From a bacterium (lineage in GTDB: Bacteria > SZUA-79 > Acidulodesulfobacterales > Acidulodesulfobacteraceae): 51,055 nucleotides of DNA. This document shows, in pieces, positions 23,008-46,896 of this stretch (position 1 is the stretch's first letter; each line of letters opens with the position of its first letter). The stretch covers positions 1-51,055 of the forward strand of contig JAJZBN010000012.1 in assembly GCA_021798875.1 (NCBI GenBank), in the 5' to 3' direction. The notes beneath the pieces were generated by a model. The model made no database searches. It saw only the letters and a list, made by a program, of their open reading frames with translations, and was not told the DNA's origin. The translations under genes were made by a program, and so were the position numbers.

Positions 23008-23439
23008 ATGGCTATTATAATTCCGAAAAGCGAACTGGAAATAATAAAAAAGCATGCGGCGGATATTTTCCCTTATGAAGCTTGCGGAGGACTTCTCGGA
23101 AAAATAGAGGGAGAAAACAAAATTATCGTAAAAGCATACCCTGCTGAAAACCGCTACGGAAAAATTACCTGGGACAGTTTTGAGATAGAACCAAAAGATA
23201 TATTGGAAATGGATAAATTCTGCATGAAAGAAAACCTTGATATTCTGGGATTTTACCATACCCACCCTAACCATCCGGCAATTCCTTCAAACTTCGACGT
23301 AAACGCTTCCTGGCCTTTTTACTCGTACGTCATTCTTTCCGTAAAAGGCAGCGCACCAGAAAACGTCGCCGACATTAAAAGCTATCTTATGCCCGACAGA
23401 ACTTCTGCTCCGACCGAAGAAGAAGTTATAATAAGCTGA
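23008..23439 (+). CDS. JAMM/Mov34-family metalloprotease (Mec+-like)
   Basis: A zinc isopeptidase-type protease. The 143-residue protein has the complete JAMM site: Glu24 in FPYEACGGLLG, then HTHPNHPAIPSNFD with His84, His86, Ser94 and Asp97 (HxHPx6Sx2D). Mycobacterial Mec+ releases cysteine from CysO-Cys, and Wolinella HcyD trims the carrier to expose Gly-Gly. Either job fits here, since the operon encodes a carrier whose Gly-Gly is buried in a fusion. An AAGGACGG site precedes the ATG. Its 3' end overlaps the convergent DUF4338 gene by 14 bp. Confidence 0.92.
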   Translation: MAIIIPKSELEIIKKHAADIFPYEACGGLLGKIEGENKIIVKAYPAENRYGKITWDSFEIEPKDILEMDKFCMKENLDILGFYHTHPNHPAIPSNFDVNASWPFYSYVILSVKGSAPENVADIKSYLMPDRTSAPTEEEVIIS

Positions 23440-24676
23440 AATTTTTAGGAGAAAACGAAGAAACCCTATTTATAACGTCCGGATTATTTTTCCTCCCGTC
23501 GTACCATCTTCCTTTCCAGTATTCTATAAGATCGTCGATTTTATAATTAAAATATTCCAATTTTTCCGTTCTTCCGTTTAAAAAATCCAAAGAATTATAT
23601 GCCAGAGGAATATAATATATATCTCTTTTAATCGAATGATTTAAAATAATATCGGAATTTAATCCATAATTTTCTAAAAATTTTAGCGCTTTTTTTATAA
23701 ACCTGAATTTATAATTTGGACCGTCTCCAAATTTATAGCCTACTTTTCCTTCTTTAACTTTTAAAAAATCTTTTAAAAGTTCGCTTGTTCGCTTGGAAAA
23801 TTGAAAAGTGCCGTAACCTTTTGTGCTGCCTATTTTTTTATAAAGCAGTCCGTCTTTGTATTTTATCCTGTTATATTGAGAGCTTTTACCGTATAAACTT
23901 GTAGTAAAAATTGCTGCAAGATTTGAAGCGTTTCTTTTATTTATTATGGTAGTCCGGCTTAAATATTTATTTTGAAAAATTTTCTGCACTTCTTTTGAAG
24001 CCATCATATAAGAAATCAGCTTACCGCCGAGAAGATATGAATATGGCGGAATTGCTCCGCATACGTATAAATCCATGCAATATACTAAATTTTTATTTTT
24101 AGTTTCCGTATTCCATCCTATAAAATCGTCTCTTTCCGGTATTCTTATTATAGAACTGCCCAGTGCCGCAATTCCTATAACCGGCTTATATTTAATTGCG
24201 TCATCCCTTATAATAAATTTGAGCCGTCTTCCGACATATTCGCTGTAAGGGCTTGACCACGTATATCTGAGCATTCTAAACAAGTCTCTTTGTTTCTGCG
24301 TTTCGCATACTTCCATAACGGGTGATATATCGGAATTAAGGCAATCGTATCCATATGCAAGATTTTTTATAAATATATCTCTGTTTTTATAAATAAAATC
24401 GGCATTCTTACGTAAAATCTCTTCTTTTCTGGGGAGCATTAAATTTCTTATGAAATCTTTATTTTTTAAATCCGAAACTGCATCTTCGAATTCAAATTTT
24501 CCGTTTTCGTAAGAAAATTTAAAATTTAACGATGAAATATCACTGTAAATAGAGGCAACGATTTCATTTTCCAATTCGGAATATCCGCATTCCAATATAT
24601 CGGGCTTATTTTCAATTTCGCCTGCCTTGATAAATATCGGCATAGCCGAGTCGTTAAAGTTATCGTCAAAAGGCAT
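23426..24676 (-). CDS. DUF4338 (DruA-like) protein of a NurA-HerA operon
   Basis: The middle and C-terminal parts match the DUF4338 pattern seen in Druantia protein DruA. The pattern is VIGIAALGSSIIRIPERDDFIGW, then SYLLGGKLISYM, TTSLYGKSSQYNRIKYK, IGSTKGYGTFQFS and a C-terminal KRDIYYIPLAYN with YWKGRWYDGR. DruA's biochemistry is not settled to my knowledge. The 416-residue gene starts 1 bp after the herA stop, so it is the third gene of the nurA-herA operon. Pairing with HerA/NurA rather than the Druantia helicase DruE is the odd feature. Family assignment is from remembered motifs. Confidence 0.7.
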   Translation of the reverse strand: MPFDDNFNDSAMPIFIKAGEIENKPDILECGYSELENEIVASIYSDISSLNFKFSYENGKFEFEDAVSDLKNKDFIRNLMLPRKEEILRKNADFIYKNRDIFIKNLAYGYDCLNSDISPVMEVCETQKQRDLFRMLRYTWSSPYSEYVGRRLKFIIRDDAIKYKPVIGIAALGSSIIRIPERDDFIGWNTETKNKNLVYCMDLYVCGAIPPYSYLLGGKLISYMMASKEVQKIFQNKYLSRTTIINKRNASNLAAIFTTSLYGKSSQYNRIKYKDGLLYKKIGSTKGYGTFQFSKRTSELLKDFLKVKEGKVGYKFGDGPNYKFRFIKKALKFLENYGLNSDIILNHSIKRDIYYIPLAYNSLDFLNGRTEKLEYFNYKIDDLIEYWKGRWYDGRKNNPDVINRVSSFSPKNFSLL

Positions 24677-24677
24677 G

Positions 24678-26807
24678 TTATTCTATTTGCATTTTTTCAT
24701 TCCATTTATCCGCCGGAACGCATACAAAAGGTTTTAACTCTTCTTCACCGTTCTTAATCATAAAATGCGGACCCTGCAATATTTCGATTTCGTCTTCGCT
24801 GCAGTCAAATATGCAGCTGAATAAAGGTATAAATAAATCGTCTTCTTTCCTTATTTCGTCTTTAAACTCTTCTTTTTCTTTAAATTCTTTAACTATATAA
24901 TATAATCTGCCCTGATAAATTCCTATTTTATTTTTATCGTGAAAGTCTTGAGTTTTAAACTTATTGTTTTTTAATTCACTTTTTATACGTTCGAATATTT
25001 TTTCCGCCATTAATTTTAACCGCTCGTTGGCTTTTTTTACTACAAGCAATGCAGGGGAATTTTCGTATTTTTGCTTACTTTCAGGATTATCTTCGCTTAC
25101 TATATACTTTTTATAAAGATTTTCAAAACTGCGTATTCTGACAGGCAGAACAAAAGGCTGGAGAGGAGCGCTCCACATATAACAATTTCCGATTATAGGC
25201 TCGTTTATAATATTTAAAATAATATCTTTTGAATAGAAAGAATTATATCTTTGTAAAACGGATGCATCGCCCTCGGATAAAACGTGAAAAACAAACCAGT
25301 TATCCGACTGGCTTAATATTTCGGGAGCAATCGAACCCGGCTGCTGGGTAACCATAATAGCGCCCAAATCATATTTTCTGCCTTCTTTTACCCACTCTAC
25401 GAACGGACTTGTTTCCGAAAGTGATTTGCCCAAGACGCTTTGCGCTTCCTCCATTATCGCAATAACCGGAATAGAAGAGCCGTCTCCCGTAAAATTTTCC
25501 TGATTATAATTAAATATATTTCTCATTATAAGTCCTGCCATATTATTACCGGCGGTTGAACTAAGCAAACTTATATCTACTATTACGACCCTGCCTTCTT
25601 TCAGTAAAGTTTCCACTTCTTCTACCAATCTGCTGTTCGGGTCATGTAAATGGCTTACTAAATTATACATATTGCTTTTTGCCGCGCTAATTTCGGCAGA
25701 CTGACCGGAAGCAGACTCTTTATTATAGCCCATTATCGTAGCTATTTCTTTTTCGTCCGCCTGCATTTTATCTCTTTCTATAATATCTACAAGTTTTGTC
25801 CATTGTTCTTTTTTAAGACTTTTTAGTTTAATTATATTTTGCTGGTCCTGTCTGTCTGGAGAAATTGCTATACCGATAACGTCCCTCGGTAAAAGCGACT
25901 TAATGTTAAGCTTGACGTTCCCCGCTTTCCAACTGCCGTAATATGTATTTATAGATTTTCTATTGGTAAAAACTGCAATATTGTCCTTAAGATGCGGCAC
26001 GTCGCACAAAGCAGGCCTGTTTTTATTATCCGGCCAAAAATATTCGCCGTCGGGATCAAATATAAGCGTTCCTACTTTTTTATTTTTATCGGTGACGGCA
26101 TACTTTCCGTTTTCCTTATATAGTTCAGAGATTAAATACTTTATAAGATTCGACTTTCCGTAGCCCGCTCTTGCGAATACTACCGACCTCTTAGAAACCA
26201 GATTGTTTATATTAAATTTTACGTTAAGGTTAGGTTCGATATATTGAAAATTAGAAAGATAGTCCTTGCCTTCTCCTTCGGCGTTTTCGCTTTTTCCGGA
26301 ATAAATAAATTCGCCCAAAACATAATTGCCAAGATTGGTTTCTCCCTGACTTAACGAACATAGTTCTTTCAATACTTCATCGCTCGGAAGCGAAACTTTC
26401 GCACCAAGATGCGGTATCCTGCGCAGCGACGGTATAAAAATAATTTTATCCTGAGAATTTTGCGTCTGCGCTATTTTAACGGCGCCAAGCAGTTTAATTT
26501 GAACCTTATATTTTAATTTGTCTTTTTTTAAATCGTCTGGGACTGTCTGCCCTCTTTTTTGAAGAGCCATAATGTAGTCTTCGCCTTCTATCGTGGACAG
26601 AAGTCCAGCCGGAGCAAAATTAGTTATTCTGGCGAGAGAAGCTTCGAGGGGATTTGCAAGTTCTATTAATAAAAATTGACCTAATTGCGGTCTTTCGAGC
26701 ATGCGCGCATCGTAAGGAGTTACTACCTCGGCGGAAAATTCGTAACCAGATTCCACCGAACCCTTAAAAATACCTATTAAATCGGATTTTGCAAACAGTT
26801 CAAGCAT
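24678..26807 (-). CDS. herA: HerA-type hexameric DNA-translocating ATPase
   Basis: HerA is an FtsK/VirB4-like translocase that works with the nuclease NurA on DNA ends and recurs in prokaryotic defence systems. The 709-residue protein has an N-terminal HAS-barrel-like region (about residues 5-165). Walker A is at 211-220 (FARAGYGKSN). There is a DPDGEYFWPD segment, a Walker B ending IAIMEEAQSVLG, and a sensor region MVTQQPGSIAPEILSQSDNW. A 150-residue C-terminal extension is charged. It overlaps nurA by 8 bp and abuts the DUF4338 gene. Confidence 0.9.
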   Translation of the reverse strand: MLELFAKSDLIGIFKGSVESGYEFSAEVVTPYDARMLERPQLGQFLLIELANPLEASLARITNFAPAGLLSTIEGEDYIMALQKRGQTVPDDLKKDKLKYKVQIKLLGAVKIAQTQNSQDKIIFIPSLRRIPHLGAKVSLPSDEVLKELCSLSQGETNLGNYVLGEFIYSGKSENAEGEGKDYLSNFQYIEPNLNVKFNINNLVSKRSVVFARAGYGKSNLIKYLISELYKENGKYAVTDKNKKVGTLIFDPDGEYFWPDNKNRPALCDVPHLKDNIAVFTNRKSINTYYGSWKAGNVKLNIKSLLPRDVIGIAISPDRQDQQNIIKLKSLKKEQWTKLVDIIERDKMQADEKEIATIMGYNKESASGQSAEISAAKSNMYNLVSHLHDPNSRLVEEVETLLKEGRVVIVDISLLSSTAGNNMAGLIMRNIFNYNQENFTGDGSSIPVIAIMEEAQSVLGKSLSETSPFVEWVKEGRKYDLGAIMVTQQPGSIAPEILSQSDNWFVFHVLSEGDASVLQRYNSFYSKDIILNIINEPIIGNCYMWSAPLQPFVLPVRIRSFENLYKKYIVSEDNPESKQKYENSPALLVVKKANERLKLMAEKIFERIKSELKNNKFKTQDFHDKNKIGIYQGRLYYIVKEFKEKEEFKDEIRKEDDLFIPLFSCIFDCSEDEIEILQGPHFMIKNGEEELKPFVCVPADKWNEKMQIE

Positions 26808-27942
26808 TTTTATATCTAACTCCCGTTAAATTACGGTGAAGGTATTTAATCCTGTATATACTTTCTCTTTCGGAATCCGACAGCGTTTTGCTTATTCCTT
26901 CTATTAACATATCTTCTATCATTTCTACTTCTATTCCGTTGATTTTTGCATGTCCGTGCGCATTTTGAATACTAAGCGGGAAATCCGGTATCGGAAACCC
27001 CAATCTAGCATCGTGAAGCAATTGTCCAAGGATCATTTCCGCATTTTCTAAGTCCCAAACGGCAATATCGACGGGCCAAACCGGATCGTAAGGACCGTCT
27101 CCGAATTTTACCAGAAATAACTTACCCATAGAAGCATAAGACTGGTTACCTTCATCGCCGGAAAACTCTTCAAAAGTATTAAACCAAGTCCTGTCGTAAT
27201 TATAACAGTATTGTTCTATTTCATCCGGAACTTTTACGTAACACGGATAAGGCAGCCTAAAAACGTTTTCCAAAGCTAGTGCAAGCGAAAGTCTGCTTAT
27301 AACTGCGCTTTCTTTTGCAACTCCTACCACGTTTACGTTTATATTTCTTTTTTGCTTATGTTCCTCGCATTTTTCTTTTATTTTTTTATCTAAAATAGGA
27401 AATAAAGTATTTTTAATAGACTTTGTGCGCAATAATCCTTCCCTTATTATTATAGTATTATTACCCCACTCGTTATATAAAAAATCATATAAGATAGCCC
27501 ATTCGACTATATCGCGATAAACCTTAACCGCCGAAGCAGTTTTTTCCGGCTGCCCCATTCCAGACAATAAATAGGAAATATCGCTTAACCTGCCTAAACC
27601 CAGATCATTGCATAAACGTTTTAAAGGCGTAATTCTTTCAACCCTTTTGTTTAAATCATCTGAATTGGAATTGCCGAAAATAGGGTCGATAGCGCACTGA
27701 ACGCCCCTTGAATCCACTACCCGTACAAGTTCCAGCACGCAAGGATTAAATTTTATATTATTGTTGCCGCCGTCCGCAGAAACAAAAGATACGGCAGTAG
27801 CAGTATAAGGTCTTAAAATTTTAATATCGTTTTTAATCTTTATCGCAAAATTCCGCAGCTCTTTTACTACCGGTTCTTCGGTAGCTTTATAAGCCGTTTC
27901 TATCTGAGATCTTATTAAATCCAAATTGTCGTCGGAAAGCAT
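26800..27942 (-). CDS. nurA: NurA-domain nuclease
   Basis: NurA is a manganese-dependent nuclease that partners HerA. The 380-residue protein has the family's first acidic motif as FVSADGGNNNI (about residue 56), ELVRVVDSRG soon after, NVNVVGVAKESAVISRLSLA in the middle and DLENAEMILGQLL plus the NAHGHAKINGIEVEMIEDML segment near the end. These correspond to the conserved Asp/Lys/His positions of the NurA fold. It is the first gene of the nurA-herA-DUF4338 operon. The nurA assignment rests on motif pattern and herA adjacency. Confidence 0.8.
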   Translation of the reverse strand: MLSDDNLDLIRSQIETAYKATEEPVVKELRNFAIKIKNDIKILRPYTATAVSFVSADGGNNNIKFNPCVLELVRVVDSRGVQCAIDPIFGNSNSDDLNKRVERITPLKRLCNDLGLGRLSDISYLLSGMGQPEKTASAVKVYRDIVEWAILYDFLYNEWGNNTIIIREGLLRTKSIKNTLFPILDKKIKEKCEEHKQKRNINVNVVGVAKESAVISRLSLALALENVFRLPYPCYVKVPDEIEQYCYNYDRTWFNTFEEFSGDEGNQSYASMGKLFLVKFGDGPYDPVWPVDIAVWDLENAEMILGQLLHDARLGFPIPDFPLSIQNAHGHAKINGIEVEMIEDMLIEGISKTLSDSERESIYRIKYLHRNLTGVRYKNA

Positions 27943-30646: not shown

Positions 30647-30718
30647 TTGACTTGTTCGCCTGATGTTCGATATAATTAGATCATATATTATTATAAATAA
30701 AATATGATCTAATTATAT
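30647..30718 (+). promoter_or_regulatory. R-M promoter inside a 17-bp palindrome with GATC sites
   Basis: TTGACT (30647-30652) and TATAAT (30671-30676), 18 bp apart, form a near-consensus promoter. A perfect 17-bp inverted repeat surrounds the start region: ATATAATTAGATCATAT at 30670-30686 and its complement at 30702-30718, with a 15-bp spacer. The left arm contains the -10, and the right arm reaches into the endonuclease start codon. Each arm contains one GATC. It looks like an operator for repression or methylation-dependent control, or a hairpin over the start codon. Confidence 0.75.
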
Positions 30719-31547
30719 GAACGTTATGAACGATAAAAAATCTAAGAAAGAAATTATAGCCGAAATATTTTCAATTTGCAAAAAGAAAAACAATTTTATT
30801 TTCGATAACGATTTAATAAAAAAAATTTTAAAAAAATATGCTTCAAATGCTAATCCTTACGATATAACTAAACTTGATAATACTTCAAAATATCCTGATA
30901 TTTTATTAAAAGAAAATTATTTTATAGCTCATATAGGACAAGGCAAACATTGTTTTATTAAAGATTTAAATAAAGTATTTCATAAGTTTGAACCGATAAA
31001 TGAAGATGAGGTCATTAAATGGCCTTATCGCCCAAGCATTTTAAACGATTTTTCTATTTCGGAAAGCAGCGTATTATCTCTTTGTTTTAATCACAGGATA
31101 ATTCATGATTTTTTATATCAAGATATAGCCGCCAATCCTAAAATATATAACAGCGAACGAAAAAGGGGTGTTTCCTTTAACTATTTCATTGAAGATATAA
31201 AAATGAATTTTGAAAATCTTCAAATTGAAATAGATTTAACTATGGAGAATTATGGATTTGTTACCGTATTTGAAGGCAAAAATGCCGTTGACTCGGTAAA
31301 TTGGATTAATAATTTTAATATTTTTCAATTATATAATCCTTACAGATATTATCATAATTTAAAATTAACAAAAAAACTTGATATAAAAAAACTTACTGCA
31401 TGTTATTTATTAAGGCTTAAAACTTCAAAAGGATCAAGGATAAGACTTTATAATTATATATTTGAAAATCCTGAAGATATATCTTCAATTAAACTTATTC
31501 AAAAAAATGAATACGTGCTTGAAAAAAGGAGAATGATTAATGATTGA
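30717..31547 (+). CDS. Type II restriction endonuclease (PD-(D/E)xK type, putative)
   Basis: The 276-residue protein overlaps a DNA methyltransferase gene by 8 bp. It contains a plausible PD-(D/E)xK core: QIEIDLTMENYGFVTVFEGK, with Asp173 and the Glu-x-Lys pair 186/188. The N-terminal half has RPSILNDFSISESSVL. I do not recognise the exact family or the recognition site. The first ATG (30717) lies inside the palindrome and has no ribosome-binding site. A second in-frame ATG at 30726 is possible. The gene is visibly more AT-rich than the core block, consistent with transfer. Confidence 0.75.
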   Translation: MNVMNDKKSKKEIIAEIFSICKKKNNFIFDNDLIKKILKKYASNANPYDITKLDNTSKYPDILLKENYFIAHIGQGKHCFIKDLNKVFHKFEPINEDEVIKWPYRPSILNDFSISESSVLSLCFNHRIIHDFLYQDIAANPKIYNSERKRGVSFNYFIEDIKMNFENLQIEIDLTMENYGFVTVFEGKNAVDSVNWINNFNIFQLYNPYRYYHNLKLTKKLDIKKLTACYLLRLKTSKGSRIRLYNYIFENPEDISSIKLIQKNEYVLEKRRMIND

Positions 31548-32385
31548 CTTTATAGATAATTTATTCAACGAAGACGTCATAGATATGATGAAAAAATTGC
31601 CGGATAATTCTGTAGATATGATTTATAGCGATCCAGACTATAATGTCGGAATCAAATACAATAACAATATATATACTAAAAAATTTGAGAATTATATCGA
31701 ATGGTATATAGAACTTGCAAAAGAGTCTTTTAGAGTATTAAAAGATACGGGTAATATGTTTTTTATTAATTATCCAAAACAAAACTCTTATTTATGGGTT
31801 AAATATTTAGACCATGCCTGCTACGATGTCCATGAATATGTATGGATTTACAATACAAATATTGGACATTCGCCAAAAAGATTTACAACGGCGCATAGGA
31901 CGATACTACATTGTACAAAAACTAAGAATAATAAATGGTATAAAAATTCGGTTGCCGAAGAATATTTAAATCCAAACGATAGAAGAATCAAACAAAACAT
32001 ATTAAACGGCTCCAAAGGCAGAATGCCATATTCATGGCTATATTATAATTTGGTAAAAAACGTGTCGAAGGATAAAACAATGCATTCATGTCAGATACCG
32101 ATAGGATTAACTGAAAAAATTTTAAAAGCTTCTACAAAAGAAAATGATATTGTTTTAATCCATTTTGGAGGTTCAGGCAACGAAATATTATTGACGAAAC
32201 AACTCAAAAGACACTATATTTCGGCTGAAATAGATAAAATATATTATGATATGATTTTAAAAAGAATAAAAAATAACGGCTGCATACCCGAAGAGTATAA
32301 ACTTAAATTTAAAAAAGAAAAAATTAATAAAAATAATTTACATAAAGTTTCAACTGAATATAATGATGAATTATTCACCTTATAA
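31540..32385 (+). CDS. DNA adenine/cytosine-N4 methyltransferase (beta-class order)
   Basis: Modification partner of the upstream endonuclease. The 281-residue protein has catalytic motif IV as MIYSDPDYNVG (residues 31-34 are DPDY instead of the usual DPPY), followed by YIEWYIELAKESFRVLK. The SAM-binding motif I is at the C-terminal end (HFGGSGNEILLTKQL, about residues 207-217), then YISAEID. Motif IV before motif I marks the beta class of amino-methyltransferases. An AAAAAGGAG site lies within the end of the endonuclease gene, so the pair is coupled. Confidence 0.88.
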   Translation: MIDFIDNLFNEDVIDMMKKLPDNSVDMIYSDPDYNVGIKYNNNIYTKKFENYIEWYIELAKESFRVLKDTGNMFFINYPKQNSYLWVKYLDHACYDVHEYVWIYNTNIGHSPKRFTTAHRTILHCTKTKNNKWYKNSVAEEYLNPNDRRIKQNILNGSKGRMPYSWLYYNLVKNVSKDKTMHSCQIPIGLTEKILKASTKENDIVLIHFGGSGNEILLTKQLKRHYISAEIDKIYYDMILKRIKNNGCIPEEYKLKFKKEKINKNNLHKVSTEYNDELFTL

Positions 32386-33995: not shown

Positions 33996-34216
33996 AATTA
34001 ATTTCTCCTTTATTAATACTTATAAAATTTTTAAAATAATAAATATTATTACTTTATGATTTTTTTTCAATATTTAAATATTTATTTAATTGCTTATGAT
34101 TTTTACTATATTATAATATTATAAATCGACTTTTGGTTTAAAGTCAAATAATTCTGACGCTGTTATTAAAAATGTAATAGCCTATCAATATAGCCGCAAC
34201 TATAAAAAATATGATA

Positions 34217-35530
34217 TCATATTTCATTATCTTCAAAAAATTTTAAACCGTATGTATAGTTCATCTTTTTAAAAATATTTATTAACTCATTGATATCCTT
34301 ATTTTTTTCTTCAAATTTATGTTTAATTAAATCTTTTATATTTAAACGCTGGCCTTTTAAATTTCTCTGCTTATTATATCGGAAAAAGTTTTCTATATTT
34401 GCATATTCCCTTATTATATCTACTTCATTTTTTAATATATCTTCGTCAGCTATAAAATTTAAAGGATATCCGTTTAAAATTTCCTGTTCGCCTAATTCAC
34501 CTTTATTTAAATTATTGCCGCTTTTATGTACGAAAAATTTCCCTATGGCAACTGGAGTATAGTTATCGTTGCCGAATAGAAAAAAATAAGGTTTATTATA
34601 AGGAAAAAAATATTCTTTATAAAAAGCATTATCTATTCGTTTTACATATACATTTACAGGATCTTCTATATTACCGCTATATTTAACTTTATTAACGGTG
34701 CATCCTATTGAATGCAATTTCTCGACTATCAAGTTTATTATATTTTCGGTATTATGCCCTGTATCAAAACCGAAAGGCAATAAATTATTAATAATAAAAT
34801 TCATATATCTTGGACCATTCATAGTAAGAAATTCAGAATTTTTTATACCCAAAGTAAAAACGGAAGACCTGTTTTTTTGATTTTTATCTATATAAATTAT
34901 TAAAAAACCTGGGAAAAATTTTGGAGATGAATTTTTTGTTAATTGAATGTCTATTGCCTCATCCGGTATATTGAACTTTCTTTTGTTTTCTATAAATGAT
35001 TTAAAATTAGAATTTATAGATAATTGCTCTGAATTTTCAATTAAAAACCTGCCAACTATTTTTTCAGGCAGTAAATCGACGCCTATCGGTTGAATTGAAT
35101 AAAATTTAGCCGGCATCAATTGTCCGGTAATTCCGCAAAAATAAAAAGACCTTGTCGTTTTTACTACCATTGCGCCTTCGTCTATAGCCATTTTGCCTAA
35201 TTCTGTCAATAATAAAAATTCTTTTTTATTTAAAGCGTTAAGGCTTTCCGTTATTAATCCAGTGCCTAAAAAATTTTCAATTATCTTTTTAAGTTTTATA
35301 ACAGGTATCCCTACAATTTTGGATATATCAGAAATATAACCGACTTTTTCCTTGACTAATTTTAAAATAACTAATTCAAGACCGCCTAATTCCTCTCTGT
35401 TACGCTCAATTAATTCAGCTTCTATTTCTAATGCCGGATAAAAAGATTCTTTTGCAAGAATTATTTTTTGTCCTTCGTTTATCACGCTCAATACATCGTC
35501 ATAATAGCTTACGAATGTTTTATGAATCAT
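34217..35530 (-). CDS. Winged-helix-containing protein, last gene of the kinase/NERD/helicase operon
   Basis: I do not recognise the family. Of 437 residues, about 50-125 look like one or two winged helices (LELVILKLVKEKVGYISDISKIVGI, KKIIENFLGTGLITES, then LLTELGKMAIDEGA). A mixed region with SFYFCGITGQLMPAKFYS follows, then a strand-rich segment with FFPGFLIIYIDKNQ and a C-terminal helical tail. The start is 9 bp from the helicase stop, so the two are surely co-transcribed. It may be a DNA-binding or adaptor subunit. The 220 bp after its stop and before the BI-1 gene hold no gene that I can see. Confidence 0.6.
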   Translation of the reverse strand: MIHKTFVSYYDDVLSVINEGQKIILAKESFYPALEIEAELIERNREELGGLELVILKLVKEKVGYISDISKIVGIPVIKLKKIIENFLGTGLITESLNALNKKEFLLLTELGKMAIDEGAMVVKTTRSFYFCGITGQLMPAKFYSIQPIGVDLLPEKIVGRFLIENSEQLSINSNFKSFIENKRKFNIPDEAIDIQLTKNSSPKFFPGFLIIYIDKNQKNRSSVFTLGIKNSEFLTMNGPRYMNFIINNLLPFGFDTGHNTENIINLIVEKLHSIGCTVNKVKYSGNIEDPVNVYVKRIDNAFYKEYFFPYNKPYFFLFGNDNYTPVAIGKFFVHKSGNNLNKGELGEQEILNGYPLNFIADEDILKNEVDIIREYANIENFFRYNKQRNLKGQRLNIKDLIKHKFEEKNKDINELINIFKKMNYTYGLKFFEDNEI

Positions 35531-35539
35531 ATATATGTC

Positions 35540-38500
35540 CTATTCTATATTATTTAATATATCGTTAACATCTATGAGCATATTGTGCATTTTGCAAAAC
35601 TCTTTTAAAAAATTCATAGACTCCCGAAACTTTACTTCCATAGGATCTATTCTGTTTTTATTTTGTTTCTCCGAAGAAAGCATATTGAGATCTCCTATCA
35701 TGAACAATTGCTGTTTTACTCTTGTCATAGCCACGTTTAATCTGCGCCAATCTCTTAAAAAACCTATAGCATTTCGTTTATTCGACCTTACGAAAGAAAA
35801 AATTATTATATCTCTTTCCTGACCTTGAAAACTATCTACCGTTGCAACTATATCTTCTAAATCATTTATTTGTTTTATATTTTTTTTATTCATTCCCGCC
35901 TTGATAGCTTTTTTAATTTCATTGACATGATTTTTGTAAGGCGATATTATGCCTAAATCAAATTCGTCGTCATCCGAGCTTGCATTCTGAATCATTTTTA
36001 TAATATAAAGAATTATTTTAGTTTCTAATGTATTGCCCGTTACGCTTAGCATATCATCCTCCCCCTTAGAAGAAGACTCTTGCTTTATGCTCTCGGGAAC
36101 ATTTGAAGTATCGAAAAAAATTAAAGGCGACTTATATAAATCTTTAAAAGGTTTTCTTTTTGAAGTCGATTCATGGGAAAAATACTTATTTTCATAAAAT
36201 GCTTCGGAAATATAATCTACTACAATTTTTGGACATCTAAATTGTGTATCCAACATTACTTTCCTGCTTTCGGGAGAATTATTCCACAATACTTCAAAAA
36301 AGCTTTTTTCTAATAAATCTATGGTATACTTATCGTCGTCGCCTATGCGCGATACGACTTCGTCCTTTAATGCATTATCTATTACAGGAGGCAATTGCTT
36401 ATGGTCTCCTACTAAAATTGCTCTTGGAGCTCTTGAAAGCGGCACGATAACGTTTTGTATCTGTATTTGTCCCGATTCATCGACAATCGTAACATCAAAG
36501 TTTACGTTACTGAAACTCTTAGTAGTATTAATACCTATACATGTTGCGCCAACCACGTCAACCAACGACAATAGCATATTATACATAGATTGCTGTCTAA
36601 TGTTCTGCAATTCATTTCGCCATCCTTTAATTATCTCATAAACTCTTAGGTAATCGTTTCGCTGTTCATTAATAACCGCAATGTCTTCTTCGATTTTTCC
36701 CGATATATCCGAAGGAAATTTATATAAGTTTAACGACTCCAATGGTATAGGATATTTTATTTCATTATAATCATGCAATTTATTATTTATATCTTGGATT
36801 CTTCTTTCTAAATCGAATTTAATTTTATTTTGATCTTCTAAATTTTTTTCAGTATCATATTTTTCAGTATCATATTTTTCAGTTTTTTTGATATATTTTC
36901 TTTCATTAAATTGATAATAAGTTTTTTTAGCGCTCAAATATGCTTTATTAAAAAAGCTGAAAATTTTATTTAATAAATTTTCTTCAATGTTTTTTGCTTT
37001 TAAAGTTGATATTTTATCGTTATTTTCAATAATTTTTTTATTATTTTCTATTTTTTTGGACGACAAATTTTTTAATTTTAGATAATAATTTTCAAGTTTA
37101 TTTCTTATTTTATTTATTGTAATTATTAATTTGTTTAGGCTGTCGTTAAATTCTGCTAATTCTTTTTGGCTTTTTAAATAATCTGGCAAAGCTTCGCTTG
37201 TTTTTTTTAGATAATTTATTGCCTCGATTATTTCATTTATGGTTTTTTGTACTTGATTTGATATTTTTTCTTGTATATTTACGGCATAATTATCTATCAA
37301 TAAATCTTTTACGTCTTCGCTTAGCTTAGCTTCATTCCCTATTCTGACGCATTGAATAGATTTATCCTTTTTTAATCTGGCAAGCACGTTATCGACGGCT
37401 TTATTATTTTGAGAGGAGACCAAAACTCTCATTCCATAATCGGTAAAAAATTTAACCCATTGAGCTATAACGGTCGTTTTGCCAGTGCCTGGAGGACCTA
37501 AGACCAAAGAATAATCGGGAGTGTTAATGCCGTTTATTACGGCTTTTGCCTGCGATGGATTAAGTCCCATATTTATCAAGACCTGATCGTTTTCATAATT
37601 CATTATGTTTTTTAGAGGAATATAAGTATATTCATTGCTAATTACCTTAGATATCCATTTATTTACCGAAAGATTCCTTTTTAAATTATCCAATACCGAC
37701 AATCTGACATTTTTTAAAGTCGGCAAAGCAGATAAATATAAATTGGCGTTGGAGGGGATCTTTTCTAAACTTATCTGTTTATCGATAATTCCGATAATTT
37801 CAAAAATATTATTTTTATTTGTAATTTCATAAACTTCTACAGATATATCTTCATCATCATTCTTGCCATTTTTCAAGTCTATTCTTAAAAAAGAAGGTTT
37901 TATTTCTTTTATTCGCTTAAAATCGCTTTCTCCTAATTCAAATGAAAAATATTGCTTATATGAAGAAAGATGTGGCAAAGGTTTTACGGTAACATAAGAA
38001 AATGGAGGTATTGAGGAAGCGGCATTTTTTTCTACTTCGTATTCCGCTTCGACAAATTGACTAATATTTTCTAAATACTGGGTTTCGCTTTCGCTAATCT
38101 CTTCTGTTTCGTCTAGTTCGCCGTCAATTTTATCGCTTTTGTTAATATTTTCCTTTCGTAAATTGTGTGATTCGGCTAATTTTAACAAAGACAAACAATA
38201 ATCCGAACCGTTCCAAAATTTATTATTTTCAAATTGCGTCCTAAAATAGTCGCCGGTAACCAAGAAAATACCTTTATGTCTTAATCTAAAACCATTTCTA
38301 ATTATATTAGCCTTTTTCCTTGATGTAGCGAACTGTATACCTTTAAAAAAAAATAGCCTTAGCTTACCATCAGCATTATTTATACTACCTTGAATTAAAT
38401 ATAAGCCGTAAATTATTTGTACTAAAAAATTCTCTTTTATGCTATCTTTGAATTTATTAATGCTGATAAAACACGAACCGCTTTTTTGTATATCTCTTAA

Positions 38501-38632
38501 AACTTCATGAAATTCCGGTTGACGAGTCGGCCATTCGCATATTTTTGCAAATTTGGCATGATAAATAAAAACTATAGGGTTATTAAAATCGTCAATTTTA
38601 TTACCCCAAAAATCATAATCTATATTATTCAT
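35540..38632 (-). CDS. Large superfamily 1 (UPF1/Dna2-like) helicase
   Basis: The 1030-residue protein has about 380 residues of unassigned N-terminal sequence, then the helicase. Walker A is LVLGPPGTGKTTVIAQWV, followed by VLVSSQNNKAVDNVLARL (motif Ia). A roughly 200-residue coiled-coil insert is rich in Lys, Asn and Glu and contains a doubled EKYDT. Motif II is TIVDESGQIQIQ with GDHKQLPPV (motif III). The C-terminal AAA_12 half contains FRCPKIVVDYIS, TVDSFQGQERDIIIFSFVRSN and RLNVAMTRVKQQLFMIGD (motifs IV-VI). All catalytic motifs are intact. It lies 22 bp after the kinase gene. Confidence 0.9.
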   Translation of the reverse strand: MNNIDYDFWGNKIDDFNNPIVFIYHAKFAKICEWPTRQPEFHEVLRDIQKSGSCFISINKFKDSIKENFLVQIIYGLYLIQGSINNADGKLRLFFFKGIQFATSRKKANIIRNGFRLRHKGIFLVTGDYFRTQFENNKFWNGSDYCLSLLKLAESHNLRKENINKSDKIDGELDETEEISESETQYLENISQFVEAEYEVEKNAASSIPPFSYVTVKPLPHLSSYKQYFSFELGESDFKRIKEIKPSFLRIDLKNGKNDDEDISVEVYEITNKNNIFEIIGIIDKQISLEKIPSNANLYLSALPTLKNVRLSVLDNLKRNLSVNKWISKVISNEYTYIPLKNIMNYENDQVLINMGLNPSQAKAVINGINTPDYSLVLGPPGTGKTTVIAQWVKFFTDYGMRVLVSSQNNKAVDNVLARLKKDKSIQCVRIGNEAKLSEDVKDLLIDNYAVNIQEKISNQVQKTINEIIEAINYLKKTSEALPDYLKSQKELAEFNDSLNKLIITINKIRNKLENYYLKLKNLSSKKIENNKKIIENNDKISTLKAKNIEENLLNKIFSFFNKAYLSAKKTYYQFNERKYIKKTEKYDTEKYDTEKNLEDQNKIKFDLERRIQDINNKLHDYNEIKYPIPLESLNLYKFPSDISGKIEEDIAVINEQRNDYLRVYEIIKGWRNELQNIRQQSMYNMLLSLVDVVGATCIGINTTKSFSNVNFDVTIVDESGQIQIQNVIVPLSRAPRAILVGDHKQLPPVIDNALKDEVVSRIGDDDKYTIDLLEKSFFEVLWNNSPESRKVMLDTQFRCPKIVVDYISEAFYENKYFSHESTSKRKPFKDLYKSPLIFFDTSNVPESIKQESSSKGEDDMLSVTGNTLETKIILYIIKMIQNASSDDDEFDLGIISPYKNHVNEIKKAIKAGMNKKNIKQINDLEDIVATVDSFQGQERDIIIFSFVRSNKRNAIGFLRDWRRLNVAMTRVKQQLFMIGDLNMLSSEKQNKNRIDPMEVKFRESMNFLKEFCKMHNMLIDVNDILNNIE

Positions 38633-38654
38633 TATTTAAGTAGAAAATAAAAAG

Positions 38655-39602
38655 TTAATAATCTTTTAAATATTTATTAATTTTATTTATTATATTAGAA
38701 TTAAAAAAACTATAAAGTTCTTTACTTGAAGGTCTTGCATGCGGGTCAAAAGACAAACATTGTCTTATGGCGCTATTAAAATCAGTATTAATATTTTCTA
38801 TATTTTTTATTTTTTCTTCGGAAAAATTTTTTTTATTTTTACAATATTCTAAAAATAAGCCTAATAAATTTATTTCAGGTACCGATTTCCAATCCTTAAG
38901 GCTGTCGTTGGGATATAAATTTATGTTTTTAAAGTCAAATAAATTACAAATAATTTTTGCTAAAGAAAAAACATCGGTTTTTTCGGTTAAATTGAAATCT
39001 CTTTTACAAAACTGCTCGGGAGATTGAAATTCCGGCGTTCCTTCTTCATCTCTGTTTCTTTTTTGAGTTGCAAGACCAAAATCTATTATCATTATCTTTT
39101 GAAACTCTTTTTTATCATTAAATTGAACTATAATATTTTCAGGCTTCAAATCCCTATGGATTAATTTTGAATTATGTATAAACATCACGGATTCAATAAT
39201 TTTTTTTGTAATATTTAATCTTTTTCTAAATTCATTTAAGTCTAATTCTTTGTTTTTATTCAGCAATGTAAACTCATCTATATATTTTTTTAATGCAATG
39301 CCTTCGCACCAATCTATCAACAAATAAGCAAATCCGTGGTCCTGATAAATTAACCTTGCTTTAGGAAAAATTTCAGGTTTATTGATAGATATATTTAGGG
39401 CAATCATTTCTTTTTTGATTTCACTAAGGCTATTTAAAGAAAGATCAAAAACCTTAAGAGAATAAAAAATTTGCGTGTCTAAATCTTTTACTTTATATAA
39501 ACCCCTTCCGGTTTGTGCATTCATAGGATACAACTCATCCAAAATAAAAAATTTAATGATTTTATCGAATTTAATTTCGTCTTTTATTTTTAAAGAAATC
39601 AT
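38655..39602 (-). CDS. Ser/Thr protein kinase (Hanks type), active-site intact
   Basis: The 315-residue protein is a cytosolic eukaryotic-like kinase with no membrane helix. It has an N-lobe with TGRGLYKVKDLDTQIFYSLK, the catalytic loop LIHRDLKPENIIVQF (HRD with Asp and Asn) and the metal-binding IIDFGLATQ (DFG). The activation segment reads GTPEFQSPEQF, followed by KTDVFSLAKIICNLF and SFDPHARPSSKEL. Both catalytic Asp residues are present, so activity is expected. It lies 29 bp after the PP2C-NERD-pseudokinase gene, whose kinase-like domain lacks these residues; the pair may act together. Confidence 0.92.
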   Translation of the reverse strand: MISLKIKDEIKFDKIIKFFILDELYPMNAQTGRGLYKVKDLDTQIFYSLKVFDLSLNSLSEIKKEMIALNISINKPEIFPKARLIYQDHGFAYLLIDWCEGIALKKYIDEFTLLNKNKELDLNEFRKRLNITKKIIESVMFIHNSKLIHRDLKPENIIVQFNDKKEFQKIMIIDFGLATQKRNRDEEGTPEFQSPEQFCKRDFNLTEKTDVFSLAKIICNLFDFKNINLYPNDSLKDWKSVPEINLLGLFLEYCKNKKNFSEEKIKNIENINTDFNSAIRQCLSFDPHARPSSKELYSFFNSNIINKINKYLKDY

Positions 39603-39631
39603 AGTATATTAAATTAAAATAAAATAAATTA

Positions 39632-41845
39632 TTAATTCCAATTGGACAAAATGTCGACAAGCTGTTCTCCTACCGGTCTTTCAGCAGGATCCATAGAAAG
39701 CATTTTTTTCAAATTATCCAATTGACTTTCATCTATGCCCATTTTTTTTATATAATCCGACCATGCATTTTGTTTTCTTATAAACTTATTTAGGTCTATA
39801 TATGAGCCAAAGGGGATAGAATTATCTTCGCTTAAAGTATAACAAACAATCTTCCCAAAACTATAAACATCAGCAGAGGTAGTTAGAATATCGCCAGGAG
39901 TATTGACTTCCCTTGCTTGAAATTCTATATCTATCGATCTCCTGTTTTCCGGAGCTATAGTAGGCAGATATTCAAGGTGGCATAATTCAAAATTTGTGAG
40001 ATAAGGCAAAACTGCGCCTGCCGCATTAGTTTCTTTAATAATTATATTTTGAGGCGTTATCGCTCTATGGGTAATATTTTCCATGTGAAGCGCTAACAAA
40101 ATTTCGGACAATTTTTTTAAAACATTTATTTTTAAAGATCTTTCAGGGTTTGTTTTTAACCAATCGGCAAGCGTTATGCCTCCTATATCTTCCAGAATTA
40201 CATAAAAGCAGCCTTCTTCGTAAAATTTATCTATATAACTCTGCAATCCCTCAACATGTCTTAAATCCTGCAAAGCCGAAAGCTCTCTTTCTAATCTTTT
40301 TCGTTCATCTTCTTCGTTGCCTTTTGCCATAGAAGTCAATTTATATTCTTTAACTATTATTTTTTTATTTTTATTTTCTATATAATGGCCGCGATAAATT
40401 TTTAAATATTTATAAACCCCTTCGGCAGTTTTCAGGTTAAATTTAAATCTTCCTATTATTTTAAAATCAGTCTCGTTGTCGATAGTTCTTTCTTCCAATA
40501 TTAAATTATTTAAAATTTCACCTAATAAATTTATTTCTTTTTCCGTTAATTTGTATTCATCTTTGATATTAGAATCACTAAAATTTTTCTTTAACACTTC
40601 TGGTATATCAACGGTTTTAGTTATAGTTACTTCTCCAAATTTGAAAGGAATGCCACAAGAGACTTGCTGTTTTAGGCACTCAACCGTTAAATCATTATTC
40701 GTATAAATGAATAGTCCGTTTTTTATACAATTGTTAGCAATTTTATCTAAACCATTTTTTTTTGCGGTTACGTTTATATTGCTAGCAAAAATATTAATAA
40801 TTTCAATTATAGACTTGACTTTGCTATTTGTCTTCTCCTTGCGCAATTCACCGTTATTATTTTTATATTCCGTGTACTCTTTGTAATTGTCTAAATCGAT
40901 TATTATTTTTCCGCTATAATTTTTTAATTCAAGTAAGTATATGCCTAACGGAGATATTAAAATTCCGTCGAATCTTCTTATGCTTCCGTTTTTGTTTATA
41001 ATAGGATTAGATCCTACTATTTTAAAACCGCGGAAATCCGCATCTTCAAATAAAACATTAGCTATATCCGATAAACCTTTTTTTTCATGTTCGTATTCTT
41101 CCTGTTTCCCTATAAAAGGATTATAAGGCCATTCAGGATTTATATAGCCCAGTCTATTTTCGTATGGAAAAACTATAAAAGCCCAATCTTTTTCCGAGGC
41201 GATATCTTTTCCTAAATCTTTCCATTCTTTCTCGGTTGTTTTTGAGTTTAAAATTTTAACATCTATTTTCTTTAACTTTTCATAATCTATTCCGTCTGTA
41301 GATAGCATAAAAAATGAATCGCTGTTTTTTTCTAAATCGATAGTGTTATGATTCGGAAGTATATTCTCATTAAGCCCTATAACTTCTATAGGCTGACTCT
41401 CTAAAGGAATAACGTTCATTATTTGATCGTCTTTTGGGGAATATGGATTTATTTGGTACAAACGTGGATTGCCTACCCAAGCAAACTCGACTTTCTTTCC
41501 TATTCTTCTTATTATTACTACTACGGCATACAATTTAAGATTTTCGGCATTGGATTTATTTATTAAATGTTTGTTTAACTTTAATATTATTTCGTCAAGG
41601 GGAGTTTTAAAAAAATCTACTTTGTTTTCTTTATTGTCTCCCTCATAACAAAAATTTTTTAATATTTCAACCGTATAATCTGCGGATTTAACAGGATCCG
41701 AAGAACCCGATACTCCGTCTACAAGCACTGCTATATCGCCTGAATCGTGAATCCATACTTTATCGGCGCTTTTCATATAGCCTATAGCCGTACTATCCGG
41801 AACAAAAGCTTTAAAAAAAAGATACCGTAAATCGTCTTTTATCAT
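39632..41845 (-). CDS. PP2C phosphatase-NERD nuclease-pseudokinase fusion
   Basis: Three domains in 737 residues. Residues 10-230 resemble a PP2C phosphatase: AVLVDGVSGSSDP with Asp43, MLSTDGIDYEK with Asp184, and a degenerate last motif EKDWAFIVF. Residues about 250-320 are a NERD domain (RRFDGILISPLGIYLLELKN), with Asp293 and the Glu-x-Lys of a PD-(D/E)xK-like nuclease. Residues about 465-735 are kinase-like, but HRD is HRA (THRAITPQNIII) and DFG is NFE, so the domain is a pseudokinase. NERD-kinase combinations occur in phage-defence protein PglW. This tri-domain order is one I do not recall. Confidence 0.8.
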   Translation of the reverse strand: MIKDDLRYLFFKAFVPDSTAIGYMKSADKVWIHDSGDIAVLVDGVSGSSDPVKSADYTVEILKNFCYEGDNKENKVDFFKTPLDEIILKLNKHLINKSNAENLKLYAVVVIIRRIGKKVEFAWVGNPRLYQINPYSPKDDQIMNVIPLESQPIEVIGLNENILPNHNTIDLEKNSDSFFMLSTDGIDYEKLKKIDVKILNSKTTEKEWKDLGKDIASEKDWAFIVFPYENRLGYINPEWPYNPFIGKQEEYEHEKKGLSDIANVLFEDADFRGFKIVGSNPIINKNGSIRRFDGILISPLGIYLLELKNYSGKIIIDLDNYKEYTEYKNNNGELRKEKTNSKVKSIIEIINIFASNINVTAKKNGLDKIANNCIKNGLFIYTNNDLTVECLKQQVSCGIPFKFGEVTITKTVDIPEVLKKNFSDSNIKDEYKLTEKEINLLGEILNNLILEERTIDNETDFKIIGRFKFNLKTAEGVYKYLKIYRGHYIENKNKKIIVKEYKLTSMAKGNEEDERKRLERELSALQDLRHVEGLQSYIDKFYEEGCFYVILEDIGGITLADWLKTNPERSLKINVLKKLSEILLALHMENITHRAITPQNIIIKETNAAGAVLPYLTNFELCHLEYLPTIAPENRRSIDIEFQAREVNTPGDILTTSADVYSFGKIVCYTLSEDNSIPFGSYIDLNKFIRKQNAWSDYIKKMGIDESQLDNLKKMLSMDPAERPVGEQLVDILSNWN

Positions 41846-41909
41846 ATTCTGCCAAATTTTAATTTGATATTAAAAATATTTTTGAAATATTTTTTGCATA
41901 TAATAATCT

Positions 41910-42404
41910 CTATTTAACTATATTACTCTCAATATAAAATATAATCTTATCGTAAATGGAAAATATTTTAGGAATTAATTTTTCATAAACAATATTAATA
42001 TTAATAACTAATTCATTTTCTTCCGAAGAATATTCATGCGATAGAGAGTTTCTGGATTTTCTAAGTTCATCCCAATCATTTGCGCTTTCTATAATCTCTA
42101 ACTTTTCTAATCTGTCAATTAAATCGCGGAACGGTTTATTCTCAAAATTTTCTTTTAAATTTTTTAATATTGTAGGAAATAGTTTTTCTCCCATAGCATC
42201 TTGCAATTTTGAATATCTGAATATAAATTGGTCTATGTGTTCTTTGTCGTCCTCTGATAAAGACCGATAATCGTCTAACGTCAGCGGCATAAAATTTTTC
42301 ATTTTCGATATAGCATGTTTTATTTTTACTATATGCCTGTCGCATTCTTCTATGTAATTTAAAAGCTTTAAACGGTCTACGTCTATTTCATGGTTATTTT
42401 CCAT
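41910..42404 (-). CDS. hepT: HEPN-family toxin-like RNase (HepT)
   Basis: The 164-residue helical protein carries the HEPN RNase motif RNSLSH (R-x4-H) near residue 120 in ELRKSRNSLSHEYS. The start codon overlaps the mntA stop by one base (TAATG), giving the standard MNT-HEPN (type VII toxin-antitoxin) arrangement. HEPN toxins cleave RNA and are silenced when the MNT partner polyadenylates them near the motif. Its position between CARF and kinase genes suggests island context, though pairs like this are also common alone. Confidence 0.88.
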   Translation of the reverse strand: MENNHEIDVDRLKLLNYIEECDRHIVKIKHAISKMKNFMPLTLDDYRSLSEDDKEHIDQFIFRYSKLQDAMGEKLFPTILKNLKENFENKPFRDLIDRLEKLEIIESANDWDELRKSRNSLSHEYSSEENELVININIVYEKLIPKIFSIYDKIIFYIESNIVK

Positions 42405-42706
42405 TATTTAAGCAGCACCCCCTGCGATTTGGCTATTTTGTATATAGGCAAATTTTCATCGGAATCAATATTTTTAATTATCACGTCAATTTTTCGTTCG
42501 CCTATTTTTTTTTCAAGCTCGACTAAAAATTTTATTTTATTTTCAAAAATATCTTTATTTTGATCGGTTTCTATAAATATATCTATATCTCCGCCTTTTT
42601 TAGCATCGTCTACCCTTGAGCCGAATAAATATGTATTTGAGTTTGCGCCAAAAAATTTTACAGTTGTTTCTTTAATCGCCTTAATTTCATATTCCTTTAA
42701 TCTCAT
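42404..42706 (-). CDS. mntA: MNT-family nucleotidyltransferase antitoxin (MntA)
   Basis: The 100-residue protein has the minimal nucleotidyltransferase active site: TYLFGSRVDDAKKGGDIDIF, a GS-x9-DxD motif with the metal-binding Asp pair, then LEKKIGERKIDVIIKNID with the third Asp. MntA neutralises HepT by transferring AMP from ATP. It precedes hepT and overlaps it by one base. Fifty-five bases separate it from the upstream CARF gene. Confidence 0.9.
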   Translation of the reverse strand: MRLKEYEIKAIKETTVKFFGANSNTYLFGSRVDDAKKGGDIDIFIETDQNKDIFENKIKFLVELEKKIGERKIDVIIKNIDSDENLPIYKIAKSQGVLLK

Positions 42707-45330: not shown

Positions 45331-46896
45331 TTAAAACAAATCGATAGTCAGCTTCAAATTATCTCTGTTACCTTCTTTTTTTAAAGTGCCATATCTTGTG
45401 TCAATTTTATCGGAGTTTACCGAATCAAATAATTCGCTCAATCGGTCTTTTGATTTTTTATAATTTTCGGCTGCAACTGCTAACGCTTTTTTATGTTTTA
45501 AAAATTCTATGATTATTTCCTCGTTATCGTAATTTAAAACATTCGTATTTATATTATTTATATTAGCGCAAAGACTCATAAAATAATTAACCATGTCTTT
45601 GCCGTCCCGAGCATGTCCAAAGTTATCGTTTCTTACTATATATTCGCCGACCGTCGTAACACCGTTAATATGCGATATAACGGCTTCTTTATCTAATGGG
45701 CTATCTACTTTGGAATATGATACTTTTCCTTCTTGCGTAACTGCGCCTATTGCATAAAAATTGTCCGAACCGGTAAAAAGCGATAAAAATTTTGGAACTA
45801 TTAATTTTAACATGTCCGGCTTTTTTGCTTCTTGCACAGCTAAATCAATAATCTTTAAATCTTCTTTTATATCGTTATCTATGTTTTCATTTTCTTTATC
45901 ATTAGGCTCGCTTTCAAAATCGTCAATTTTTTCATTTTTAGACGCCAAAAAATATTCTTTCATCTTCCCCGCTAAACCGTTTAAGCCCATTTTGCCGTAT
46001 ATGTAAGACAGTTTATCGTAAGCTTCATCGAAATATGGGTTTTTTTCTGTAAATCTGTTTATAAGCCTTATAGCTTTTTCGTAATCCCCTTTTTCTAAAA
46101 AATAGTCCGAAATCTTAAGAATTCTTTCTCCATCGTCTTGGTCTTTTGATATAAAATCAAAGGAATCTTTTTCAAGATCAAGTTCGTTCGATAAAATTGC
46201 GGCATCTAATTTCACGTCTCTCGTATATTTATAAGCGTCAGGACTTGATGGACTTGTTACATCTTCGCTGATTTTTTCAACCCCTTCATCCGACAATATT
46301 TTATCTTTTATGGATTTTATAATAAAAGACGAAATATCTTTTTGATAACTTTTAGCAAGCAATGCGCTTTTTAAAAGCGATAATCCTATATGTAATTCAG
46401 GTTTTTCTTTTGAGCTTTTTTCCTTAGACAAAGTTAGCATAACTTCGTTTTCCAAATATTTAACCGCCGTATCTCTTAGTTTTTCGCAATTTTCCAGAGT
46501 GCCGGCAAACATTACGAAATCGTCTGCATAACGCAAATATTTAGAACCGGATTCTTTAAACACAAGTTTATCAAAATCGTTAAGATAAATATTGCCGAAC
46601 AAAGGAGAAGTTGGGGAGCCGAGACTTATTCCTTTCGGCGAATATTCAGAAGAACTTTTAATAATTATAGAAAGAAGATTTATAAGAGGTTTTTCTTTTA
46701 CGACTTTTTTAATTTTTTCAAGTAAAAGTGCCGTATCTATAGAATCAAAAAAAGAATGTATATCGGCGTTAAAAGCAAAGTTAATCTCCTGTTCTTTACA
46801 CAAATTTTCGGTCTTAATAACCGCCTGCATAGCTGATTTTCTTGGCCTGTAACCATAAGAACACCTTAAAAACAATTTCTCGAATAACGGTTCCAA
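45331..46896 (-). CDS. CRISPR-associated reverse transcriptase, 5'-truncated, with TPR and primase-like C-terminal parts
   Basis: Reverse-transcriptase core in the first 130 residues: SYGYRPRKSAMQAV, catalytic ADIHSFFDSID (Asp at 45), GISLGSPTSPLFGNIYLNDF and YLRYADDFVMF (YADD at 123-126). TPR-like helices follow (YFLEKGDYEKAIRLINRF, about residues 265-320). The C-terminal region (GSDNFYAIGAVTQEG, PLDKEAVISHINGVTTVGEY) resembles the start of an archaeo-eukaryotic primase. The only start codon is TTG at 46894-46896, yet the frame continues upstream to 46998 with clear RT residues, so the true N-terminus is lost. It adjoins truncated cas2 and intact cas1. Confidence 0.88.
   Translation of the reverse strand: MEPLFEKLFLRCSYGYRPRKSAMQAVIKTENLCKEQEINFAFNADIHSFFDSIDTALLLEKIKKVVKEKPLINLLSIIIKSSSEYSPKGISLGSPTSPLFGNIYLNDFDKLVFKESGSKYLRYADDFVMFAGTLENCEKLRDTAVKYLENEVMLTLSKEKSSKEKPELHIGLSLLKSALLAKSYQKDISSFIIKSIKDKILSDEGVEKISEDVTSPSSPDAYKYTRDVKLDAAILSNELDLEKDSFDFISKDQDDGERILKISDYFLEKGDYEKAIRLINRFTEKNPYFDEAYDKLSYIYGKMGLNGLAGKMKEYFLASKNEKIDDFESEPNDKENENIDNDIKEDLKIIDLAVQEAKKPDMLKLIVPKFLSLFTGSDNFYAIGAVTQEGKVSYSKVDSPLDKEAVISHINGVTTVGEYIVRNDNFGHARDGKDMVNYFMSLCANINNINTNVLNYDNEEIIIEFLKHKKALAVAAENYKKSKDRLSELFDSVNSDKIDTRYGTLKKEGNRDNLKLTIDLF

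Follow-up and report, generated by a model that had tools for sequence, protein, structure and literature searches.

Four adjacent genes in a genome of the Acidulodesulfobacteraceae combine a phosphatase, a nuclease domain, two kinase-fold domains and a helicase, and raise the question of whether they encode a new kind of immune system or a version of one already described. They lie within a stretch of 51,055 nt (the window; contig JAJZBN010000012.1, assembly GCA_021798875.1) and are arranged as follows:

39632..41845, minus strand: gene 1, PP2C-NERD-pseudokinase protein of 737 aa (Pfam, homologue alignment; gene order shared with relatives at five further loci)
38655..39602, minus strand: gene 2, active-type Ser/Thr kinase of 315 aa (Pfam, PADLOC, homologue motifs)
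35540..38632, minus strand: gene 3, SF1 (UPF1/IGHMBP2-like) helicase of 1030 aa (Pfam, PADLOC MkoA match at 1e-106, motifs)
34217..35530, minus strand: gene 4, MkoB-like protein of 437 aa (PADLOC, profile comparison, AlphaFold)

The ORF list confirmed the coordinates of these four genes and the intergenic gaps of 29, 22 and 9 bp that had been reported in a preliminary description of this DNA. The same description had placed the operon in an AT-rich defence island. Its GC content was indeed 27-30%, compared with 33-40% across much of the window, and the island was upheld on the basis of the defence genes identified around it using Pfam and PADLOC, namely Cas6, CARF, MNT/HEPN, an RM-like pair, DruA/HerA and RT/Cas1.

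Some of these neighbours merit a separate comment. A DUF6996/DUF6997 protein and an N6/N4 DNA methylase (window 30717-32385, plus strand) probably constitute a restriction-modification pair. A DruA-like protein (DUF4338), a HerA-like ATPase and a 380-aa protein, the last NurA-like by eye and with no PADLOC match, are encoded at 23426-27942 on the minus strand; a trio resembling this block was found at another place in a sister genome, G011 (L046:12915-17444), and may also move as a unit. The reverse-transcriptase gene beside Cas1 (45331-46896, minus strand) is an eroded copy when compared with its 980-aa homologue in the sister species G014 (L004:51-2990), of which it lacks residues 220-300, 556-772 and 795-884; residues 556-772 appear primase-like by eye.

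Three domains were delimited in the product of gene 1:

41156..41845, minus strand: PP2C (PPM, RsbX-like) domain, residues ~1-230 (six-homologue alignment and PDB profile search)
40841..41101, minus strand: NERD (PD-(D/E)XK) domain, residues ~249-335 (Pfam, profile comparison, six-homologue alignment)
39656..40378, minus strand: pseudokinase domain (Pfam and six-homologue alignment)

Pfam recognised the NERD domain (1.3e-6) and a kinase domain (Pkinase, 8e-15) in this protein and gave no match for its PP2C domain. Comparison of a six-homologue profile of the latter region with the PDB returned RsbX (3w40) as the best match, with tPphA and PPM1K weaker, and the metal-site-type aspartates D43, D184 and D220 were found to be invariant in the six homologues. 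The match to RsbX is weak (6.9e-6), but the assignment as a putative PP2C is supported. Both the first acidic position (D34) and the glycine of the DG pair (G44) are changed in the Vibrionaceae, and phosphatase activity could therefore be weakened or abolished in that family. In the NERD domain D293, E306 and K308 are invariant among the six homologues and the D/E-K signature is intact. The kinase domain has lost its catalytic residues in 6/6 homologues, with HRD replaced by HRA, HRG or HRS and DFG by N/G-F-E, and it retains the beta-3 lysine (K499) and the alpha-C glutamate (E521) in the six sequences; we therefore regard it as a pseudokinase.

Gene 2 encodes a kinase of the active type (Pkinase, 6e-29) carrying HRDLKPEN and DFG, and HRD and DFG are present in all six homologues. 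It matched the PADLOC MkoA kinase at 9e-21, and for the kinase domains of genes 1 and 2 alike the best PADLOC matches were the MkoA and mad6 kinases. The product of gene 3 was matched by the AAA_11/AAA_12 families (1e-45; SF1, UPF1/IGHMBP2-like) and contains a complete set of helicase motifs (the Walker A GPPGTGKT, DES, GDHKQLPP and NVAxTR), which is retained in all homologues. Specifically, it is a COG1112-type helicase of the MkoA family, matching PDLC03920 at 1e-106 across the C-terminal half of the model.

Gene 4 had been described as an unknown fourth protein, a view superseded by the homology of its N-terminal half to MkoB (PADLOC 8e-7; profile-profile 5e-12 across residues ~19-220). Its winged helix lies at residues ~50-118, where MarR-like matches were obtained (E ~0.02, probability ~1); AlphaFold modelling with five sequences gave a pLDDT of 52 overall and of ~86 at the winged helix, and with three sequences a pLDDT of 35. 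Profile comparison of the C-terminal half with PLD halves gave scores no better than those of unrelated pairs. The HKD motif is absent from all six homologues, gene 4 included, and for these two reasons a PLD domain concealed in the C-terminal half was rejected. All the domain calls of the preliminary description (PP2C, weak but supported; NERD; pseudokinase; active-type kinase; SF1 helicase; winged-helix protein) were thus retained.

The order of the four genes is identical in six loci from three lineages, comprising the window and five other genomes: the sister species G014 (L004), plasmid AZO_p1 of Azospirillum lipoferum (L003), Vibrio aestivus (L005) and two further Vibrionaceae (L051 and L052). 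This recurrence indicates that the arrangement is more than chance. Only four genes are present in G014, as in the window, and five in the Azospirillum and Vibrionaceae loci. The product of the fifth gene is ~400-430 aa in length with two C-terminal hydrophobic segments, and the Azospirillum and V. aestivus copies were matched by PADLOC CorA-like models; no such gene adjoins the operon in the window or in G014. In V. aestivus the MkoB-like gene is apparently broken near its 5' part, with pieces in two frames (L005:15819-17148), which appears to be a draft error or a pseudogene; the L051 and L052 copies are intact.

The operon was detected in 2/386 genomes drawn as relatives, both within the genus (2 of the 16 genomes of the genus), and in three of 248 Vibrionaceae. 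A Pseudomonadota sample yielded one carrier among 399 genomes, V. aestivus, which was the centre of that draw; it was also the draw centre, and the only genome with a convincing match, among evenly drawn Gammaproteobacteria, two of which gave weak PP2C-only matches that were excluded from the relatives. A scan of genome contigs returned one relative, Azospirillum was the sole full match in a tblastn search of plasmids, and no relative was found in the viral contigs searched. These low counts (0-1% of genomes in the samples) identify the system as rare. Defence genes adjoin it in the window and in Azospirillum, where the neighbours are BrxL and PglZ; no other defence gene lies nearby among the ORFs of L052. 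As to whether the gene set recurs in defence contexts, a point raised in the preliminary description, we found that it does.

Comparison with G011 revealed an empty site:

34033..41911, no strand assigned: block absent from sister genome G011 (window-G011 comparison)

G011 carries CARF, MNT, HEPN and BaxI-like genes in the matching order, with HEPN and the BaxI-like gene adjoining each other and the operon missing. Homology between the two sequences ends at 41912, the HEPN stop codon, and restarts at 34032, with 88 bp in between in G011. The ~7.9-kb block is therefore either wholly present or wholly missing; inspection of the block ends by eye found no obvious target-site repeats. Beyond gene 1, G014 has a different flank (AAA/DUF234 ATPase), whereas the BaxI-like side is unchanged. 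The MNT nucleotidyltransferase and HEPN-like pair, which in the window immediately adjoins the operon on its upstream side (41910-42706, minus strand), was observed on the opposite side in G014, near Cas6.

The preliminary description had found no system that it could name for this gene combination. The absence of a match did not hold, as the PADLOC models for MkoA and MkoB of Mokosh type I matched the helicase, the kinases and the N-terminal half of gene 4, and the idea of an operon unlike any catalogue entry was rejected on these matches. NERD has also already been given under Mokosh type I (PMC10952713). The catalogues and literature searched contain no description of the division of these parts among separate genes, of the PP2C fusion or of the fifth, CorA-like gene.

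Plasmid records revealed two forms of Mokosh type I. In the short form (PDLC03920 and PDLC03922), MkoA is a kinase-helicase and MkoB has a PLD domain; in the long form (PDLC03921 and PDLC03923), NERD, pseudokinase, kinase and helicase form one MkoA chain, accompanied by another MkoB without the PLD motif. The long form shares with the operon the order NERD-pseudokinase-kinase-SF1 helicase, the division into a dead and an active kinase and a MkoB partner devoid of HKD, and the long-form NERD profile matched that of gene 1 at E ~1e-7. It differs in having a single fused MkoA in place of three genes and no PP2C, and its helicase belongs to a separate clade with ~23% identity to that of the operon. 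The short form is the closest in sequence, with ~36% identity across the helicase C-terminal half, an active kinase and a homologous MkoB N-terminal half (5e-12), and both helicase and kinases of the operon are nearer to it than to the long form. However, its kinase is fused to the helicase, it has neither NERD nor pseudokinase, and an HKD-bearing PLD nuclease forms the C-terminal end of its MkoB.

Phylogenies were then consulted, with four members of the PP2C-bearing clade in the helicase tree and its full six in the kinase tree. The helicase analysis recovered the PP2C clade (100/99) and the long form (100/100) as separate monophyletic groups; in the kinase tree, the PP2C-clade pseudokinases grouped with the first kinases (K1) of the long form with a support of only 74/85. 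Having its own clade in both trees, the operon is more than a fragmented long-form MkoA, and that explanation is weakened by a helicase clade that is not nested within the long form. The NERD-pseudokinase-kinase module was either ancestral, with a later loss from the short form, or acquired on more than one occasion.

The distribution of NERD and of the HKD motif is largely complementary. HKD is absent from the MkoB-type protein in 14/14 NERD-bearing systems (eight of the long form, covered by PADLOC PDLC03923 or relatives thereof by tblastn, and six of the PP2C clade, the V. aestivus protein being incomplete) and present in five of six NERD-less kinase-helicase systems. The exception is Mycobacterium marinum pRAW (L030:6486-8339), where MkoB has an S1 RNA-binding domain and another residue in place of the His of HKD, and may be a PLD variant that is no longer active. 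A seventh NERD-less helicase locus, from Cyanobacterium HL-69, has no recognised kinase domain and retains HKD. This pattern, which derives from few independent lineages, suggests that NERD may replace PLD as the nuclease; the pairing of NERD-bearing MkoA with HKD-less MkoB, and vice versa, suggests that the nuclease has moved between subunits. Two plasmid loci are worth recording here. On a Pantoea plasmid (L024:1490-6442), a separate NERD ORF lies just upstream of a kinase-helicase MkoA, reflecting a natural split or a frameshift of a long-form MkoA, and on Pseudomonas aeruginosa plasmid pF011 (L019:10823-15650) the long form lies beside three tandem tyrosine-recombinase-type genes, which suggests a dedicated mobile element.

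Based on these homologies, the operon is very probably related to Mokosh type I, and we predict with only slightly less assurance that it is a defence system. We do not class it as Mokosh type I proper because a fused MkoA and a PLD motif are lacking: kinase and helicase are separate genes here and in the five homologous loci, and the gene adjoining those for the MkoA components resembles MkoB in its N-terminal half, with no match for the C-terminal half. The PLD motif is, however, also missing from accepted members, namely from the eight long-form MkoB proteins. We regard the operon not as an entirely new system but as a rare new version of an established type of defence, and on balance we favour a relative of Mokosh type I that acts against invaders on its own and is spread laterally.

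Its domains recur in other known systems. In Nhi, NERD is fused to an SF1 helicase; the same pair occurs together in the operon, but in genes 1 and 3 and with kinases and PP2C added. The KKP system (PfkA-PfkB-PfpC) has established that a PP2C can act as a brake on defence kinases (PMC11341870), and like the operon it sets a PP2C phosphatase against kinases within one operon. KKP differs in having two active kinases with CSD/FHA domains and no nuclease or helicase, and its phosphatase is separate, whereas that of the operon is fused to NERD-pseudokinase. No description of PP2C together with NERD in defence was found in the literature searched. KKP is the closest tested precedent (PMC11341870) for the PP2C brake that we propose in the present operon.

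From the sequences, a phosphorylation-controlled nuclease-helicase is the most likely reading. We tentatively put forward a scheme, with somewhat less than an even chance of being correct in its particulars, in which immunity would depend on a phosphorylation-gated NERD nuclease-helicase with PP2C as the off switch. Helicase and winged-helix partner would together sense the nucleic acid of an invader; the kinase would then phosphorylate the complex via a docking surface on the pseudokinase, and NERD, the only recognisable nuclease left in the operon, would be released onto DNA or RNA. PP2C, in one chain with NERD, would undo the phosphorylation, and the system would stay off as long as the cell is healthy. 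In Azospirillum and the Vibrionaceae, the CorA-like protein with its two TM segments is probably a second, membrane effector.

A phospho-toxin resembling KKP, in which the kinase, activated by the pseudokinase, would be toxic by phosphorylating host proteins, PP2C would be the antitoxin and NERD, helicase and winged-helix protein would only sense or amplify, appears improbable. KKP, with two kinases and a PP2C, acts in this manner (PMC11341870), and the operon has a PP2C and two kinase-fold domains in adjoining genes. However, the CSD and FHA domains that are the hallmark of KKP gave no Pfam match in the operon proteins, one kinase of the pair has lost its catalytic residues in every homologue, and a mere sensor would have no need of the strictly conserved NERD active site.

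Less probable still is a PglW-like front end for a BREX/Pgl-type or other island system, dependent on neighbouring modification genes. PglW (PMC12839542) and the NERD-kinase protein DndF (PMC10853773) do show the NERD-inactive kinase-active kinase order seen here, the PglW profile aligned along residues 249-621 of gene 1, and the Azospirillum copy adjoins BrxL and PglZ. Of the 1403 positions of the PglW model, however, only 12-363 were matched, and its C-terminal half has no counterpart in the operon. The C-terminal halves of PglW (type 2 BREX) and DndF (wHTH/iSTAND, P-loop kinase) are both missing, the partners differ, and no PP2C is reported for either protein (PMC12839542, PMC10853773). No PglX, PglY or PglZ was present among the 20 window proteins scanned, the ORFs of L052 include no further defence gene in the vicinity, and the helicase and MkoB-like partners indicate Mokosh. 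An equally remote non-defence role, in stress or in the repair of nucleic acid under a switch of kinase and phosphatase akin to RsbX partner switching, would fit the PDB search, in which RsbX scored best against the PP2C domain, and the cellular roles of UPF1-like helicases, but is countered by the patchy distribution (2/16 genus genomes; 1/399 in the Pseudomonadota sample, at the draw centre), the presence or absence of the block as a whole, the defence neighbourhood and the MkoA/MkoB homology.

Returning to the phosphorylation-controlled nuclease-helicase, the literature consulted does not explain by what means the nucleases of Mokosh, PglW and DndF are controlled by the kinase domains of these systems. 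The natural split with an attached phosphatase means that each component (kinase, pseudokinase, nuclease, helicase and phosphatase) can be mutated, swapped or omitted gene by gene, which makes the phosphorylation question directly testable. It is possible, although we consider it rather unlikely, that the operon represents an immune system in its own right, sister to Mokosh, in which the nuclease chain carries its own off-switch phosphatase along with the pseudokinase and is acted on in trans by a free kinase, the helicase and the winged-helix sensor. If so, reversible phosphorylation, rather than oligomerisation or a nucleotide signal, would set the threshold of the nuclease, and the proteobacterial members would have gained a membrane effector.
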